Below, one piece after another: positions 1-7,400 of a DNA stretch of 7,493 bases. The translations under genes and the position numbers were made by a program. This DNA comes from an uncultured Eubacterium sp. (GTDB lineage Bacteria; Bacillota_A; Clostridia; Lachnospirales; Lachnospiraceae). Positions within the stretch are counted from its first letter, which is position 1. Each line of letters opens with the position of its first letter. The notes beneath the pieces were generated by a model. That model was not told the origin of the DNA and made no database searches. It saw nothing but the letters and a program-made list of their open reading frames with translations. The stretch is taken from positions 1-7,493 of the forward strand of contig CANTHI010000180.1 of NCBI GenBank assembly GCA_947653505.1, written 5' to 3'.

Positions 1-319
1 CCTCATAAGGCTCATCTGCAAATCGTCCTCTGCGCTGAACGGACTGTCTTGGATATTTTTTGACGATCAGATCTCCGCTGATTCTGATTTCCCTCCATCC
101 ATACGGATATAAAATCTCATCAAATTTCTTTGGGATTGGTGATTCATTCCCTCCTGCCTTTTTGATATCGGCAGGTGTCAGCTTTAGTCTGCGCAAACAG
201 TCCTGAATCTCATTCCATTCTTCCCCAAATGCATCATGCAGTATCTCTAATGCATGTCCGTAATTGTAAAATTCAAATTTTGTTAAAAGCTCTTTATCAA
301 TGTATTGATCCAGCCCCAT
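1..319 (-). CDS. Putative BglII/BstYI-family type II restriction endonuclease, N-terminal part (runs off the left edge)
   Basis: This is an open frame of 106 codons from ATG at 319-317 to the window edge, with no stop, so it is a partial gene. The start is well determined: AGGAG (327-331, minus strand) sits 7 nt upstream and an in-frame TAA directly precedes the ATG. Visible segments are FYNYGHALEIL (17-27), EEWNEIQDCL (33-42), GGNESPIPKKFDEILYPYGW (56-75), REIRISGDLIVKKYP (76-90) and a basic RRGRF patch (97-100). The pattern of an N-terminal helix with EW-EIQ, followed by FDE-L---GW-E, matches what I recall of BglII/BstYI-type endonucleases, which cut inside NGATCN sites. The catalytic acidic/Lys cluster should lie beyond the edge, so activity cannot be judged. 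The gene overlaps the end of trmK by 23 bp and is probably translationally coupled to it. GC over 1-300 is about 41%, far below sampled trmK. The family call rests on memory of homologues; a non-nuclease homologue is possible. Confidence 0.7.
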   Translation of the reverse strand, partial: MGLDQYIDKELLTKFEFYNYGHALEILHDAFGEEWNEIQDCLRRLKLTPADIKKAGGNESPIPKKFDEILYPYGWREIRISGDLIVKKYPRQSVQRRGRFADEPYE

Positions 320-1172
320 TTAACATCTCCTGTAAACAAGCAATCTCCTCCAGCCGCATCCCGGCTTCCATCCTCCTGCATGTAAAACGCTCCCCCACAC
401 ACTGCTGCCCGAAAGCCTCGCCCATGCCTTTTTCCAGCTCACACAAAATCCTGCGTTCCCGCTGTTCCTCACGCTCCAGCAGTTTTTTTAAAACCGGATG
501 CTTCACACAGATCAGATACTCCCCATACCGGTCCAGAAGATCCTGCACCCGCTCCGGCTCTGAAAGGCGCTCCTGCAGCTGCAAAAATACCTCCCGCCTT
601 TTCCTCTTCCATGCTTCCGCTTTTTTCCATGCTTCACCTGATTTTATCGTCTGTGCTTCCGCTTTTTCCCATGCTTCACCAGATTCTATCGTCTGTGCAT
701 GTACCACATGCAAAACAGGATACAGCTTTCCGACGTCATACACCAGATCTTCCTTATCGATATACATCTGATGTTCCCGCACATATCTGCGCACTTTTGC
801 AGGATCAGACTGCGGCTCTAAAACCAGCTCTTCCAGCTGCGGCAGCACATGTCCGGCCTCTTCCAGAATATGAAGCACCGTCATCCCGCCCATACCGGCT
901 ATCACCACGCTGTCCGCCTCGCCCTTTTTCAGCTCCTGCATACCGTCCGACAGCCGTGTCTGAATCACCGCTTCCAGTCCGGCTGCCGCAATATGTTCCT
1001 GCGCCCGCATCAGCGGCCCTTTGCGGATATCCATCGCGATAACATGCGGACATCTGCCGCTTTGTATCAGATAAATCGGTAAAAATCCATGATCCGTCCC
1101 GATATCCGCAGTCCGGCTGCCAGCTGTCACAAAATCCGCCACTGCCTGCAGACGCCCTGATAACTTCTGCAT
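297..1172 (-). CDS. trmK: tRNA (adenine(22)-N(1))-methyltransferase TrmK, 291 aa
   Basis: TrmK transfers a methyl group from S-adenosylmethionine to N1 of A22 in the D-arm region of tRNA, in the cytoplasm. The N-terminus MQKLSGRLQAVADFV leads into a Rossmann methyltransferase: ADIGTDHGFLP (about 22-32) is the SAM-binding loop, AMDI (46-49) the acidic strand end, SDGMQ (75-79), and VVIAGMGGMTV (89-99) the TrmK signature followed by LVLEPQSDP. The C-terminal part is helical and highly charged, as expected for the family's coiled-coil domain. I chose ATG 1172-1170 because GGAG lies 8 nt upstream and the family begins with this L-S-R-L segment. A longer GTG start at 1226 would add 18 residues but has GGAG abutting the start codon. 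The protein is longer than the usual 230-240 residues, partly because of a duplicated 14-residue unit at about 159-186. It follows rpoD, as is common in Firmicutes. Confidence 0.93.
   Translation of the reverse strand: MQKLSGRLQAVADFVTAGSRTADIGTDHGFLPIYLIQSGRCPHVIAMDIRKGPLMRAQEHIAAAGLEAVIQTRLSDGMQELKKGEADSVVIAGMGGMTVLHILEEAGHVLPQLEELVLEPQSDPAKVRRYVREHQMYIDKEDLVYDVGKLYPVLHVVHAQTIESGEAWEKAEAQTIKSGEAWKKAEAWKRKRREVFLQLQERLSEPERVQDLLDRYGEYLICVKHPVLKKLLEREEQRERRILCELEKGMGEAFGQQCVGERFTCRRMEAGMRLEEIACLQEMLNGAGSIH
613..696 (-). repeat. 42-bp imperfect tandem duplication inside trmK (two units)
   Basis: Units 613-654 and 655-696 are 42 bp each and match at 39 of 42 positions. They encode two 14-residue repeats, AQTIESGEAWEKAE and AQTIKSGEAWKKAE, followed by a decayed partial third unit (AWKRKRRE). 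The period is a multiple of three, so the frame is kept. The units fall at the junction between the methyltransferase domain and the helical C-terminal domain and lengthen a charged helix or linker. Confidence 0.93.
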
Positions 1173-1247: not shown

Positions 1248-2543
1248 TTACTCCAGATAGTCTTTCAGCTTGCGGCTTCTGCTTGGATGACGCAGCTTGC
1301 GCAGCGCCTTGGCTTCGATCTGGCGGATACGCTCACGGGTGACGTTAAATTCTTTTCCGACCTCTTCCAGTGTCCGTGCCCTGCCATCCTGCAGGCCAAA
1401 GCGCAGCGTCAGTACTTTCTGCTCGCGGTCCGTCAGCGTACCCAGCACCTCGCCAAGCTGTTCCTTTAACAGGGTAAACGCCGCGGCATCGGCCGGTACC
1501 GGTACGTTATCGTCCTGGATAAAATCTCCCAGATGCGAATCTTCCTCTTCGCCAATCGGCGTTTCTAAAGAAACCGGCTCCTGTGATATCTTTAAAATCT
1601 CCCGCACACGCTCGACCGGCATATTCATCTGCACCGCAATCTCTTCCGGAGACGGTTCGCGTCCCAGCTCCTGCAGCAGCTGTCTGGAGACACGGATCAG
1701 CTTGTTGATCGTCTCTACCATATGCACCGGAATCCGGATCGTTCTCGCCTGATCCGCGATCGCCCTGGTAATCGCCTGCCGGATCCACCATGTCGCATAG
1801 GTGGAAAATTTATATCCTTTGCGGTAGTCAAATTTTTCCACCGCTTTGATCAGACCCAGATTGCCCTCCTGAATCAGATCCAGAAAGAGCATCCCGCGTC
1901 CGACATAACGCTTGGCAATGCTGACAACCAGACGCAGATTTGCTTCTGCCAGACGTTTTTTGGCATCCTCTCCATGATCCTGCTCTAAGATCAGACGGTT
2001 AATCTCCTCGTTGATCTCACGCTTTTCTTCCACAGTCGTCTCCGGCTTGTCCCTGCGGCCTCTGAGGATGATAATCTTTTCATGCGCGACAGCTCCGTTT
2101 TCCATTTTCTGTGCCAGATCGATCTCTTCCTCTGCGCTTAACAATGGTACCTTTCCGATTTCTTTTAAGTACATGCGCACCGGATCCTCAATACTGACCC
2201 CGTCCGGTACTGTCAGATCGATGTTTTCTACTTCCACATCCTCATCTTCTATTAAAATATCATCGTCATCATCATCATCGGAAATACGCAGAACATCCAC
2301 GTTGTGGATCTCCAGATATTCCAGCACATTTTCCAGCTGCTCTGCTGACAGGCACATACTTTGGAATGCATCACTGATCTCCTGATATTCCAGCATATTC
2401 TTTTTCTTTTTGGCCCGTTCTACAAGACTGCCCAGAATTTCCAAAAATTTCTGCTGGTCAAACACTGGCGTTTCCGTGCCCTCTCTCTCCGGAGCATGAT
2501 CCTTTTTTTTCATTTTCTTTCTGTTTTCTTCCATATTTGCCAT
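1248..2543 (-). CDS. rpoD: Primary (housekeeping) RNA polymerase sigma factor RpoD/SigA
   Basis: RpoD binds core RNA polymerase and directs it to -35/-10 promoters of housekeeping genes. Numbered from the chosen start, region 1.1-like sequence lies at about 27-85, an acidic run with seven consecutive Asp at 89-95, region 1.2 ([21 protein letters not shown]) at about 120-140, region 2 ([54 protein letters not shown]) at about 203-262, region 3 at about 270-350, and region 4 with the -35-recognition helix-turn-helix ([19 protein letters not shown]) at about 392-410, ending in DYLE. About 40-45 residues separate regions 1.2 and 2, more than in the 371-residue Bacillus SigA. The start is ambiguous: ATG 2543 has GAGAGG 9 nt upstream, whereas ATG 2552 (434 aa) has it abutting the codon, so I prefer 2543. 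It lies 21 nt after dnaG. Confidence 0.96.
2259..2279 (-). repeat. GAT/GAC triplet run encoding seven Asp in RpoD
   Basis: Seven contiguous triplets, six GAT and one GAC on the coding strand, form a short microsatellite. It encodes Asp 89-95 of RpoD, in the acidic linker between region 1.1 and region 1.2. Gain or loss of a triplet would keep the frame. Confidence 0.85.
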
Positions 2544-2564
2544 TGATTTCATCCTCTCTTGGTC

Positions 2565-4370
2565 TCACATGCCTGTCGTTTCCGGCATCTGTGTCAGAAA
2601 TTCTTTTTCCCGCAGTGCCTCAAGCATCTTTTTCTCCTGCAGCATTTGTGAAAAACGTTCCTGCATCCCGTCTGGATCACGATTTTCTTTCAGTTTCTGA
2701 AGGTGATGTTCTTTTAATTTCATAATAGTATCTTTTAACGCCTGCCCGCGTTCTTCCCGTGTCTTTACTTCCCGTATCGTTTCATGAAACGCAGACACGA
2801 TCTGGCGCTGTTCTTCCAGATCTTCAAAATGTCCCGGAATCTGCGCCAGATTCAGACTGCCCGTTTCCAGCTGGTCAAACAGCGCTTTTGCAGCATGCGC
2901 GCATACCGGATCTGTAAAATCATCCGGTGTGATATATTCCCGTACCAGCGGATACAGCGCCGGCTCCTCGCTCAGCCAGGTCAGCAGCAGCTTCTGGGAT
3001 TTTTTGATCCCGTCTTCCCGGTGAGGCTCCTTTTTCTGCGTGCCGGATCTAAGCGGTTGCGGCCGCTGCACCGGCCCGGCCGCTGCGCCTTCCTGCGCTG
3101 TCAGCCTGCGCAGATTCTCATAACCGATCTGGTACTGGTTCGCGACAGCTTCAATATAATTATTCCGCTCCAGCGTTTCTTCAAATTCCAGCAGCTTCCT
3201 GGCAGCCGCCCGGTAAAACGCCGTCTTCCCCTGCGGATCGTTCATATTATAATTCTGCTCCAAAATCCGGATTTCAAACATAAAGCTGTTTTCTGCCTGA
3301 TCAATCCGCTCCTGATAGGCATCCGCTCCCAGCGCTTTGATAAACTCATCCGGATCTTTATACGGACTCATCTGGATGACCTTTGCGGTCAGACCGGCCT
3401 CCTTTAAAATCGGAATGGCCCGAAGCGCCGCTTTGATCCCCGCCCCGTCGCTGTCAAAGGTCAGATACACCTCCTTTGCATAACGCTTGAGCAGGCTGGC
3501 ATGTCCGCTCGTAAAGGCTGTGCCAAGAGACGCTACCGCGTTGTCAAATCCGGCCTGATGCAGCGCGATCACGTCCATATACCCTTCGCACAAAAGCATC
3601 TGCGGCCTGCGGGACTGTCTGGCCAGATGCAGCCCGTACAGATTCCGGCTCTTATCAAAAATCTGTGTTTCCGGTGAGTTCAGATATTTCGGCTCTCCCT
3701 CACCCATGACCCTGCCGCCAAAGCCTATGATCCTCTGATGTACATTCATAATTGGAAACATCGCCCGGTTCCAGAACTTATCATGCGCGCCCCGTTTCTC
3801 ATCAATGGTAATCAGTCCGGAGTCCCTGAGCAGCTGGTCTGAATAGCCTTTGGACTTTAAATACCGGTACAGATCATCCCGGTATTTATCCGCATAGCCA
3901 AGCCCGAATTTTTGCATCGTCTGATCAGAAAGCTCACGACCGCGGAAATATTCCAGCGCGTGCGCCCCACGTGCACTGCGCAGCAGCATATAATAATATT
4001 TTCCAGCTTCGCGGTTGACCTCCAGCAGCATGGAACGGTAATCGGACTCCCGCTTATCCTGCGCGGTCATCTCCTGCTGCGGCAGTGTGATCCCCGCACG
4101 TTCTGCCAGCTGCTGCATGGCTTCTGGAAATGTAAAATTTTCATACTCCATTAAAAAACCAAATACATCCCCTCCCGCGCCGCATCCAAAACAGTGATAC
4201 AGCTGTTTCCCCTGCGACACATGGAAGGAGCCTGTCTTTTCATTATGAAACGGACACAGTCCGACATAGCTGCTGCCCTTTTTCTGCAGCCTCACATATC
4301 CGGATATGACATCTACGATATCATTTGCGGATCGTACTTCTTCCTTTAATTCTTCTGAATAAAATGGCAT
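2565..4370 (-). CDS. dnaG: DNA primase DnaG, 601 aa
   Basis: DnaG synthesises the short RNA primers for lagging-strand and restart synthesis and works with the replicative helicase at the fork. Numbered from the chosen start, the zinc-binding domain is at about 1-95 with ligands C39, H42, C60 and C63 (CPFHNEKTGSF ... YHCFGCGAGGD). The catalytic core includes the KYLNSPET segment, and the Toprim centre has ECE-like E262 (CEGYMDV), D306 and D308 (FDSDGAG), then KDPDEFIK. A Pro/charged linker at about 430-455 leads to a helical helicase-binding C-terminus. Length is typical. I chose ATG 4370 because GGGAG lies 8 nt upstream and family members begin with a similar F-S-E-E/D segment. A GTG at 4424 would add 18 residues, has no ribosome site and would overlap dgt. 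The gene starts 41 nt after dgt ends and is probably cotranscribed with it. Confidence 0.97.
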   Translation of the reverse strand: MPFYSEELKEEVRSANDIVDVISGYVRLQKKGSSYVGLCPFHNEKTGSFHVSQGKQLYHCFGCGAGGDVFGFLMEYENFTFPEAMQQLAERAGITLPQQEMTAQDKRESDYRSMLLEVNREAGKYYYMLLRSARGAHALEYFRGRELSDQTMQKFGLGYADKYRDDLYRYLKSKGYSDQLLRDSGLITIDEKRGAHDKFWNRAMFPIMNVHQRIIGFGGRVMGEGEPKYLNSPETQIFDKSRNLYGLHLARQSRRPQMLLCEGYMDVIALHQAGFDNAVASLGTAFTSGHASLLKRYAKEVYLTFDSDGAGIKAALRAIPILKEAGLTAKVIQMSPYKDPDEFIKALGADAYQERIDQAENSFMFEIRILEQNYNMNDPQGKTAFYRAAARKLLEFEETLERNNYIEAVANQYQIGYENLRRLTAQEGAAAGPVQRPQPLRSGTQKKEPHREDGIKKSQKLLLTWLSEEPALYPLVREYITPDDFTDPVCAHAAKALFDQLETGSLNLAQIPGHFEDLEEQRQIVSAFHETIREVKTREERGQALKDTIMKLKEHHLQKLKENRDPDGMQERFSQMLQEKKMLEALREKEFLTQMPETTGM

Positions 4371-4411
4371 CCGGCTGACTCCCTTTCCTGTTTGCGTCCT
4401 GTTCCATCCTG

Positions 4412-5416
4412 TTATACCTGCCACGGGACCGGAACATAATATTCATTAAATTTTGCAATCGCATACAGATCCGTCATACCCGCAATATAATCACAAACGG
4501 CCCGGTCCAGACGTTCGCCTTTGCGTATCATATCTGTAAACTGCTCCGGCATCTTCTCCGGCCTTTTTAAATAATATTCGAACAGACGCTCCAGCAGCTC
4601 CTCCGCTTTCTGCTCTTCCCGCTTTGCCTTCGGATTATGATACAGATGGACAAACATATACTGGCGCAGTCCCTTCATGGCATCTTCTACCTCCGGTGAC
4701 ATCCGGATCTCATCCCTGCCCATACTGTTTGTAACAATATTATGTATTAAAGTATTCAAACGCATACGTACATTTGTCCCCAGAATTTCCCTGTACTGCG
4801 CGGGAATATCCTCTTCGCACAGAATTTTTGCCCGTATCGCGTCATCCACATCATGATTAATATAGGCAATCTTATCCGATAAACGTACAATCCGCCCTTC
4901 CAGCGTCGCTGGCATGCTGCTCATCTGATGATTTAAAATACCGTCCCTGACCTCCTTCGTCAGATTGAGCCCTTCCCCATGCTTTTCCAGCTTTTCCACA
5001 ATCCGCACACTCTGCTCATTGTGCCGGAATCCTCCCTCACACAGCCGGTTCAGCATAAATTCCCCCGCATGTCCAAACGGCGTATGTCCCAGATCGTGCC
5101 CCAGCGCAATCGCTTCCGCCAGATCTTCATTTAAACGCAGCGCTTTCGCAATCGTGCGGGCATTCTGGGAGACTTCCAGCGTATGGGACATTCTGGTCCG
5201 GTAATGATCACCTTTCGGTGTCAGAAAAACCTGCGTCTTATTTTTCAGTCTCCGGAACGCCCTGCTGTGCAGGATCCGGTCACGGTCACGCTGGTAAACC
5301 GGACGGATGTCACAAGGTTCTTCTTCCCGCTGCCGGCCTTTGGACTGATCGCTGAAAGCCGCATAGGGACTTAATATCGCATGTTCCCTCTGTTCCATTT
5401 CTTCCCGTATCGTCAT
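4412..5416 (-). CDS. dgt: Deoxyguanosinetriphosphate triphosphohydrolase-like HD-domain protein
   Basis: This family hydrolyses dGTP or other dNTPs to the nucleoside and tripolyphosphate, using a metal held by an HD-domain. Seen here: SRAFRRLKNKTQVF (51-64) and DHYRTRMSHTLEVSQ (70-84), which are diagnostic of the Dgt-like group, and metal ligands H78, H107-D108 (ALGHDLGHTPFGHAGE) and D181 (RLSDKIAYINHD), so the catalytic set is intact. Length is 334 residues, the short form usual in Firmicutes. The start ATG 5416 is supported by AAGGAGG 9 nt upstream (5426-5432). It appears to be the first gene of the leftward dgt-dnaG-rpoD-trmK operon. True substrate preference (dGTP or general dNTP) cannot be told from sequence. 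Confidence 0.93.
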   Translation of the reverse strand: MTIREEMEQREHAILSPYAAFSDQSKGRQREEEPCDIRPVYQRDRDRILHSRAFRRLKNKTQVFLTPKGDHYRTRMSHTLEVSQNARTIAKALRLNEDLAEAIALGHDLGHTPFGHAGEFMLNRLCEGGFRHNEQSVRIVEKLEKHGEGLNLTKEVRDGILNHQMSSMPATLEGRIVRLSDKIAYINHDVDDAIRAKILCEEDIPAQYREILGTNVRMRLNTLIHNIVTNSMGRDEIRMSPEVEDAMKGLRQYMFVHLYHNPKAKREEQKAEELLERLFEYYLKRPEKMPEQFTDMIRKGERLDRAVCDYIAGMTDLYAIAKFNEYYVPVPWQV

Positions 5417-5576: not shown

Positions 5577-7400
5577 ATGAGACACACATATAAAAAACAA
5601 TATGAAATCCTACTATTCATGCTTTGTTCCATTCTGATCTTTCTCTTCCGCATCTGGTACATCCGCGAATCCAATGTACCCGCCATCCGTAACGATGAAT
5701 ACGGCTACTGGACCCATGCGGCGCTGTTTACCGGACACGACTGGTCCGACGTCTTTGCCGGCCATATGAACTGGTATTCCTACGGCTACAGCCTGATTTT
5801 AACCCCGCTGTTCTGGCTCTCCCACAACCTGCACCTGATGTATAAAACCGCGATTGTATGCAACGGGATCTTTGGCGTCCTGACTTACCTGATCTGTATC
5901 CGCTGCGGCAGGCTGCTGTTTGCGGATGCGGAACGCTGGCTGCTGTTTGTCGTTTCTTTTATGGTATGCATGTACTCTTCTTATATTACGCAGGGACCGG
6001 TTGCATGGAGCGAGACGTTTCTTTACCTGCTCGTATGGCTGCTGCTGTATTTATTTCTGGAATTTGAACAGCATCCGTCCGTCAGCGGCGCTATCCTGCT
6101 GGGCACCTGCATGGGCGCCTGCTACATTACCCACAACCGCACGATCGGCATTGTTACCGCTTATTTTATGATCGTACTGTTTCTGCGCCTGACAGACGCC
6201 ATTGACTGGAAGCTGTTTACAGCGCTGCTGCTCCCGCTGCTTCTTATTTTATATGTAAATGTGGATATCAAAGCATATTTATGTATGGTAGAAGGCTTCG
6301 GCCTAAAGCCCAAAAACGGCATGGGCGGCCAGAAAGACCATCTGCTCTCCCTGCTCACGCTGCAGGGCTGGCAGAATCTTTGCCGCTCCCTCAGCGGACA
6401 GCTGTGGGCACTGATGACATCGACATTCGGACTCGCATTCTGGGGAGTGGTCCATTGTGCTTCCCATGTCATCCAGGCATTCCGCAGCAAACGCTCCCAA
6501 AAGCATACTTCCTTTTACCTGTTTACCCTGCTGTCCTGTGCCGGTACGTTTCTGGTCTCAGCCATCAGCCTGATCGATCCGGCATCCATCACAAACCTGG
6601 ACTCGGATACCGACCTGACCTACTTCATCTACACCCGGTATGACGAATGCATCATCGGCATCCTGCTGTTCACAGGCTTTTTCGGACTGGCACAATGTAA
6701 AAACCACCGCAGGCGCCTTTTGCTGACAATGCTAGAAATCTGCTTTTACACACTGACCAGCGTGATTTTATATGTTAACCTGCAGCGGATCACCGACACC
6801 TGGCACTACCGTTCCTTTTGTGCCGCAGGCATTGGCTTTTACCGCCTGTTTTCCGAAAAATTCTCCATGCAGTGGTGCCTGATCATCGCTGCTGCCGGCG
6901 CGCTGATCCTGTTTTTTCTGTTATCCTTTTACAGACAGCGTTTCCAGCGCCTGCATCAGACAGCCGCCTGCGTGCTGCTGGCCGCGGCCTTCATCCCGAC
7001 CGGCCTGTATTCCGCGAAAATCGGTACCGTCAATTCACAACTGGGTAAAGTATCTTCCGGAAATCTGGCTATGTTCGATCTGCTTGGGGAAGTCGTCGGC
7101 GGCCGCGAGGTATACTGCACATTAGACGATACAAAAAATTACCGGATTGCCTACGAGCTACAGGTAAATCTGATCGATACCCATGTACTTTCCATTACAA
7201 TGGAAGATCTGCCAGTTGCAGAAGAAGGATATTTTATCTGCTGCAGCAACGGGGATCTGGACCATTTTGACGGGGACGATTACTATATGCTGACCCAGAG
7301 CCGGTACTACGTCATCGTAATTAAGGGAGATGACCTGATGCGGGAACTTGCTCCAAAAGTGGATCACGATCTGGTCAATCTGAATGTTTTAAAAAATTAA
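5577..7400 (+). CDS. Polytopic membrane protein, putative GT-C fold glycosyltransferase (PMT/ArnT-like)
   Basis: This is a 607-residue protein with about 13-14 predicted membrane segments (about 10-28, 69-83, 88-108, 119-137, 146-162, 170-184, 190-205, 212-228, 278-296, 312-332, 357-373, 380-400, 433-451 and 462-478) and a hydrophilic C-terminal tail of about 125 residues, probably extracytoplasmic. The first loop carries RNDEYGYW with D40-E41, the position of the catalytic/metal-binding acidic pair in GT-C enzymes that use polyprenyl-phosphate sugars. THNR (185-188) and YTRY (352-355) resemble family motifs. A role in moving a sugar onto a surface glycan, lipid or protein is inference; overall similarity to a named family cannot be confirmed here. 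The start is fixed by AGGAG 8 nt upstream. The gene stands alone, divergent from the dgt operon, with its own terminator, and its GC-rich codon use matches the core genes. Alternative: an uncharacterised membrane protein without enzymatic activity. Confidence 0.85.
   Translation: MRHTYKKQYEILLFMLCSILIFLFRIWYIRESNVPAIRNDEYGYWTHAALFTGHDWSDVFAGHMNWYSYGYSLILTPLFWLSHNLHLMYKTAIVCNGIFGVLTYLICIRCGRLLFADAERWLLFVVSFMVCMYSSYITQGPVAWSETFLYLLVWLLLYLFLEFEQHPSVSGAILLGTCMGACYITHNRTIGIVTAYFMIVLFLRLTDAIDWKLFTALLLPLLLILYVNVDIKAYLCMVEGFGLKPKNGMGGQKDHLLSLLTLQGWQNLCRSLSGQLWALMTSTFGLAFWGVVHCASHVIQAFRSKRSQKHTSFYLFTLLSCAGTFLVSAISLIDPASITNLDSDTDLTYFIYTRYDECIIGILLFTGFFGLAQCKNHRRRLLLTMLEICFYTLTSVILYVNLQRITDTWHYRSFCAAGIGFYRLFSEKFSMQWCLIIAAAGALILFFLLSFYRQRFQRLHQTAACVLLAAAFIPTGLYSAKIGTVNSQLGKVSSGNLAMFDLLGEVVGGREVYCTLDDTKNYRIAYELQVNLIDTHVLSITMEDLPVAEEGYFICCSNGDLDHFDGDDYYMLTQSRYYVIVIKGDDLMRELAPKVDHDLVNLNVLKN

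Follow-up and report, generated by a model that had tools for sequence, protein, structure and literature searches.

A probable restriction-modification cassette docked behind trmK in the dnaG-rpoD operon of an uncultured Eubacterium sp.

Why should a restriction endonuclease gene stand at the tail of an operon that encodes primase and the main sigma factor? The question is raised by 7,493 nucleotides of an uncultured Eubacterium sp., a gut bacterium of the family Lachnospiraceae (assembly GCA_947653505.1, contig CANTHI010000180.1; this whole stretch is called the window below), at whose left edge an endonuclease-like gene, designated R, follows trmK on the minus strand. A sequence-only reading of this DNA had placed R behind the trmK-rpoD-dnaG operon; gene order and direction agree with this, and the observation itself is confirmed. 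The interpretation that came with it, a nuclease tied to the growth-linked core operon, is partly supported as a whole. The answer we favor, with a probability of about 0.7, is that a compact restriction-modification (R-M) cassette is docked in the dgt-dnaG-rpoD-trmK operon, where its expression would be growth-linked, at an exchangeable site between trmK and nif3.

The open reading frame (ORF) of R starts with ATG at position 319 and comprises, down to the left window edge where it is open (2..319, minus strand), 106 codons of the 5' part of the gene. Its earlier assignment to the BglII/BstYI family held on comparison with profiles: the fragment matches PF09195 (Endonuc-BglII) with 27.9 bits at a cut-off of 26, over positions 1-62 of the 163 of the profile, and the test for the BstYI/BglII fold was positive. 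None of the NCBIfam and PADLOC models matches the fragment, and a sequence search of the PDB gave no meaningful match. The ORF is not a chance one, since 115 relatives were found in the scan of genome contigs, the best 80 of which, to which the counts below refer, are 69-85% identical to it; these are mostly labelled as Lachnospiraceae or other Clostridia, and few otherwise. Complete copies have about 212-242 residues, counted from the matched start, and the four full-length relatives that were tested score 145.6-148.8 bits against PF09195. The motif around D..DLE.N.KDQTFDRDL, taken as an active site of the PD-(D/E)XK type, is strictly kept in 78 of the 80, with one change each in L023 and L034. 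In a protein collection at least 7,797 of 8,000 scored candidates matched R, hence the family is very common. In BstYI and BglII the corresponding motif is D-x8-E-x-Q, as against D-x8-D-x-E in the R family considered here, and their partner methyltransferase is of the m4C type, in contrast to the m6A-type partner found here.

This partner, an MT-A70-type methyltransferase (M), comes directly after R, in the same orientation, in 78 of the 80 relatives. In 77 it was recognized by ORF clustering, its mechanically assigned start overlapping the end of R in 75 of these; in L013 it is frameshifted, and in L014 and L023 a contig edge lies where M would follow. Both M proteins scanned match PF05063 (MT-A70). 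As M adjoins R while the remaining neighbors mostly vary between loci, the unit is the R-M pair. The scan of viral contigs added 25 R loci, 24 of them with the same M beside R (in six of these 24 it lies in front of R or on the opposite strand) and one, L105, without it. Given the 78 related loci with M directly after R, M very likely lies just left of the window, where the sequence-only reading had expected a methyltransferase, if any. The visible ORF would thus be the 5' part of R in a two-gene type II cassette, in which a BglII/BstYI-family nuclease is immediately followed by an m6A methyltransferase, the two genes probably overlapping or almost touching. The recognition sequence is probably RGATCY, because the M of one relative (L002) is 67% identical to that of R-M.Nph3I from the Nitratiruptor phage NrS-3, for which cleavage of RGATCY is reported (PMC10734518).

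As for the junction with trmK, the ORF of the latter ends at 297 and thus overlaps R by 23 bp (297..319). An AGGAG ribosome site (327..331, minus strand) lies within the 3' coding end of trmK, 7 nt ahead of the ATG of R; both the overlap and the separate ribosome site had been noticed in the sequence-only reading, and both stand. The closest TrmK, P0001, a protein-collection entry without genomic context, is 96% identical to that of the window and ends in ...LEEIRVLTEILVE, as against ...LEEIACLQEMLNGAGSIH in the window. Since the two tails thus diverge about 14 residues ahead of the stop codon, the foreign DNA probably begins between positions 341 and 320, a zone (320..341, minus strand) that may be taken as the left border of the insertion. 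Among the sampled genomes (a draw of 397 from the family and 13 from one genus) the best TrmK identity is 72%, and a draw of 116 relatives yielded no genus closer to the window. Inspected by eye, and with profiles only in part, the cargo-stretch ORFs showed no integrase; junction repeats were not searched for.

What occupies the same junction in related strains was seen in the 13 congeners, drawn after the family draw, whose RpoD proteins are 85-97% identical to that of the window (96-97%, the highest values, in G411, G412, G414 and G415). Eight of them carry nif3 directly after trmK. In three, the space between trmK and nif3 holds cargo in the operon direction, different in each case: an AAA-ATPase gene (PD-T4-4_A profile, 109 bits) with a 224-aa gene in G411, a HipA-like gene (PDC-M03A, 35 bits) in G412, and in G414 a single 657-aa SIR2-STALD-TIR polypeptide, which scores 399 bits with the ThsA profile and 53 bits with the ThsB_TIR domain. 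As matches to defence systems, one of the three is strong, one moderate and one weak. The GC content of the cargo is 36-38%, versus 50-57% for trmK. Different immune-type genes are thus found between the same core genes, and the window provides the fourth cargo. Of the other congeners, G418 has SnoaL- and antitoxin-like genes after trmK, with nif3 not following, and G421 a 478-bp spacer with no convincing gene; G421 is also the only one of the 13 with R, at a different place. We suppose that trmK|nif3 is a small docking site, for whose cargo homologous recombination in the conserved genes on either side would be the simplest means of exchange.

Two details of these loci stand on their own. The G414 polypeptide (L166:2984-4957) combines SIR2_2, STALD and ThsB_TIR domains and looks like the Thoeris proteins ThsA and ThsB joined into a single chain. 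In G411 (L164:10679-11641) the trmK frame is apparently shifted near its 3' end, just ahead of the ATPase cargo, be it by sequencing error or in reality.

Outside the genus the junction was surveyed in 105 genomes, 17 reached via R loci and 88, chosen from the strongest trmK matches, out of 388 trmK-positive ones in the family draw; two stop at a contig edge, leaving 103 assessable. That nif3 is the usual follower of trmK proved right: it comes directly after trmK in 81 of the 103, and a kinase-like gene does so in 20 more. The two departures are L131, with an 846-bp gap holding only a 91-aa ORF, and L206, with other genes. No recognized defence gene was found at the junction in any of the 103, the L206 genes having been searched for R and M only. 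Fisher's test of 3/13 against 0/100 (run with 100, not 103) gives p = 0.0012, to be taken as a guide only, because the genomes are related, the site was chosen via the window and one of the three cargoes is a weak match. A locus flagged by script as cargo-bearing (L223) was discarded, the flag having come from a poorly aligned nif3 start; the neighbor is an ordinary nif3, with its ORF at +12. In G328 the next junction of the same operon, that of nif3 with the kinase gene, holds an AAA-ATPase gene along with another gene that matches no profile (L217:1993-3850). A general link between R and trmK was also considered and rejected, as among the 80 relatives a TrmK homolog occurs near R only in L080, on the opposite strand; an RpoD-like match near R was likewise found in one relative (L043).

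The same R-M pair occurs in other housekeeping operons. In L018 and L033 it stands between rseP and ispG, flanked further out by dxr on the upstream and polC on the downstream side (the L018 neighbors and the rseP and ispG of L033 were identified by profiles, the other L033 neighbors by cluster), R beginning 9-10 bp after rseP and ispG following M by 15-24 bp. In this setting R is under purifying selection (L018 versus L033, dN/dS 0.04 for R, 0.03 for M and 0.06 for rseP, with dS near saturation). Among 11 genomes of that genus, R-M stands between rseP and ispG in three, including L249; in one, rseP is followed by two genes with HEC-02A/B scores of 402 and 210 bits, and in seven ispG follows rseP by 12-48 bp. 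In 28 further genomes of the family ispG lies within 200 bp of rseP in 14 and out of reach in 12, besides one 668-bp gap and one contig end; neither R nor M follows rseP in any of the 28, the 12 without ispG in reach having been searched for these two only. The R proteins of L018 and L033 are mutual best matches by a small score margin, that of L033 being equally close to L034 (87%). In Faecalibacterium gallinarum (L061) the pair separates ftsK from a YgiQ-like radical-SAM gene. The 30 ftsK loci seen in its genus include 25 with ygiQ 7-188 bp after ftsK and two that could not be judged; in G479 and G483 ftsK is followed by C5 methyltransferase and NgoMIV-type nuclease genes (417 and 463 bits), with ygiQ after the pair in G479 and not seen in G483. 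Since the rseP and ftsK sites were found by following R, they show recurrence of the pattern and not its frequency. Two side observations concern the rseP-ispG genus: in L249 (G472) R is cut to 201 aa near its N-terminus while the M frame is open, so R may be decaying and M kept, and in G471 a gene with a YhcG_C PDDEXK nuclease domain (L283:3052-3699; PF06250, 185 bits, and PDC-S02 profiles) lies between ispG and polC, beside the HEC-02-like pair.

How, then, would R be expressed? Upstream of it, in the same direction and closely spaced or overlapping, lie trmK (297..1172 from the start common to its relatives, longest ORF to 1226; PF04816, 148.7 bits), rpoD for the main sigma factor (1248..2552; NF006666, 601.6 bits), the primase gene dnaG (2565..4424, taken from GTG, the true start possibly being further in; TIGR01391, 449.8 bits) and, as the first gene of this minus-strand run in the window, dgt for dGTP triphosphohydrolase (4412..5416; NF002327, 520.9 bits). 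In a coarse scan, neither trmK nor rpoD showed a sigma-70-like site on the minus strand, in line with the earlier remark that trmK shows no obvious promoter; the sole promoter-like match on that strand lies within dnaG, and the whole region has 3 such matches versus 6.4 +/- 2.7 in shuffles. An equally coarse scan found no terminator-like site on the minus strand from dnaG to R. No controller gene directly precedes R in the window, where trmK runs into R. Expression of the cassette as a passenger on the growth transcript is probably the simplest reading: R has a ribosome site but is preceded by neither a visible promoter nor a controller gene, and it would be read within the operon whose next gene, beyond the cassette, would be nif3.

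The strongest competitor, which we consider unlikely though far from negligible, is an R-M cassette that is autonomous, driven from a promoter of its own within trmK or R and not by the operon, and that lies behind trmK by chance. In its favor, a controller-type gene (small, of the Cro/C1 type; the two scanned are HTH_26, as in controller-dependent R-M systems) precedes R in 12 of 78 relatives, and most others show some intergenic space before R, many of them without tight linkage to the upstream gene; the family is therefore not generally promoterless. However, in the window there is no room for a promoter outside trmK and none was seen within it, R has no preceding controller gene, and in L018 and L033 R starts at most 10 bp from the rseP stop. 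Besides the features of the relatives just named, several facts weigh against the docked cassette as we understand it: the promoter scan is coarse; the window ends short of the organism's catalytic residues, its M and its nif3; the G412 cargo is a weak defence match, the 224-aa partner gene of G411 matches no defence profile, and G418 deviates from the usual gene order without defence genes.

Much less probable is a decaying remnant, with R broken past the window or lacking its methyltransferase. Such decay is known in the family (the shortened R of L249, the frameshifted M of L013); against it, the 106 visible codons are intact, with dN 0.11 and dS 1.5 relative to L069, and the motif is kept in all 80 relatives, two with a single change. 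A chimeric assembly is the least probable of all. For it speak the mere 319 bp of R that are seen, at the sequence edge, and the variety of contexts around R, of a kind that can disrupt an assembly; against it, the junction has the marks of a working one (trmK open as far as a stop codon, ribosome site, overlap) and coincides with the position of other cargo in congeners.

Elsewhere in the window, divergently from dgt, an apparent membrane protein of 607 aa is encoded (5577-7400, plus strand) without Pfam or NCBIfam match; its gene has the same position beside dgt in G411 and G418, the two congeners whose left side was fetched. Around positions 600-725, trmK contains a near-duplicate stretch (..ESGEAWEKAEAQTIKSGEAWKKAEAW..), where P0001 is six residues shorter.

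The enzyme family, the R-M pair and, at larger scale, defence hotspots flanked by core genes (PMC10250203) are already known. In R-M.Nph3I, too, a methyltransferase comes after a PF09195 nuclease, here 37% identical to the R of L002, yet this system is prophage-borne and followed by a regulator gene, whereas the window cassette sits within a housekeeping operon. An Acinetobacter baumannii A118 system, likened here by description and not by sequence, combines a BglII/BstYI-superfamily nuclease with m6A at RGATCY and belongs to a variable defence region; its M and R are separated by a transcriptional regulator, and no essential operon is involved (PMC10287943). The Pseudomonas aeruginosa hotspots cDHS1 and cDHS2 share fixed core flanks, exchangeable immune systems and a suggested recombination at the flanks; cDHS1, however, spans 1-224 kb (median 26 kb), in contrast to the one or two genes set tightly in an operon, in its direction, described here (PMC10250203). 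Searches of an open-access library, which lacks most subscription papers, gave no description of R-M or other defence genes docked tightly in housekeeping operons; this is weak evidence of novelty.

More generally, and tentatively, with somewhat less than an even chance of being right, housekeeping-operon junctions (trmK|nif3 behind dnaG-rpoD, rseP|ispG before polC, ftsK|ygiQ) may be sockets for interchangeable one- or two-gene immune cassettes, which would need no promoter, controller or integrase, ride as passengers on growth transcripts and be swapped between strains via recombination of the flanking core genes. The search for defence genes commonly turns to large islands or mobile elements. 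An island-based approach can overlook immune cassettes if these are small and tightly built into housekeeping operons, in which case the core genes on either side would offer a simple index to new systems, for instance by the content of the trmK-nif3 space. There would also be a question of control, namely how an R-M pair can be safely established when it lacks a controller gene and is tied to the dnaG-rpoD transcript.
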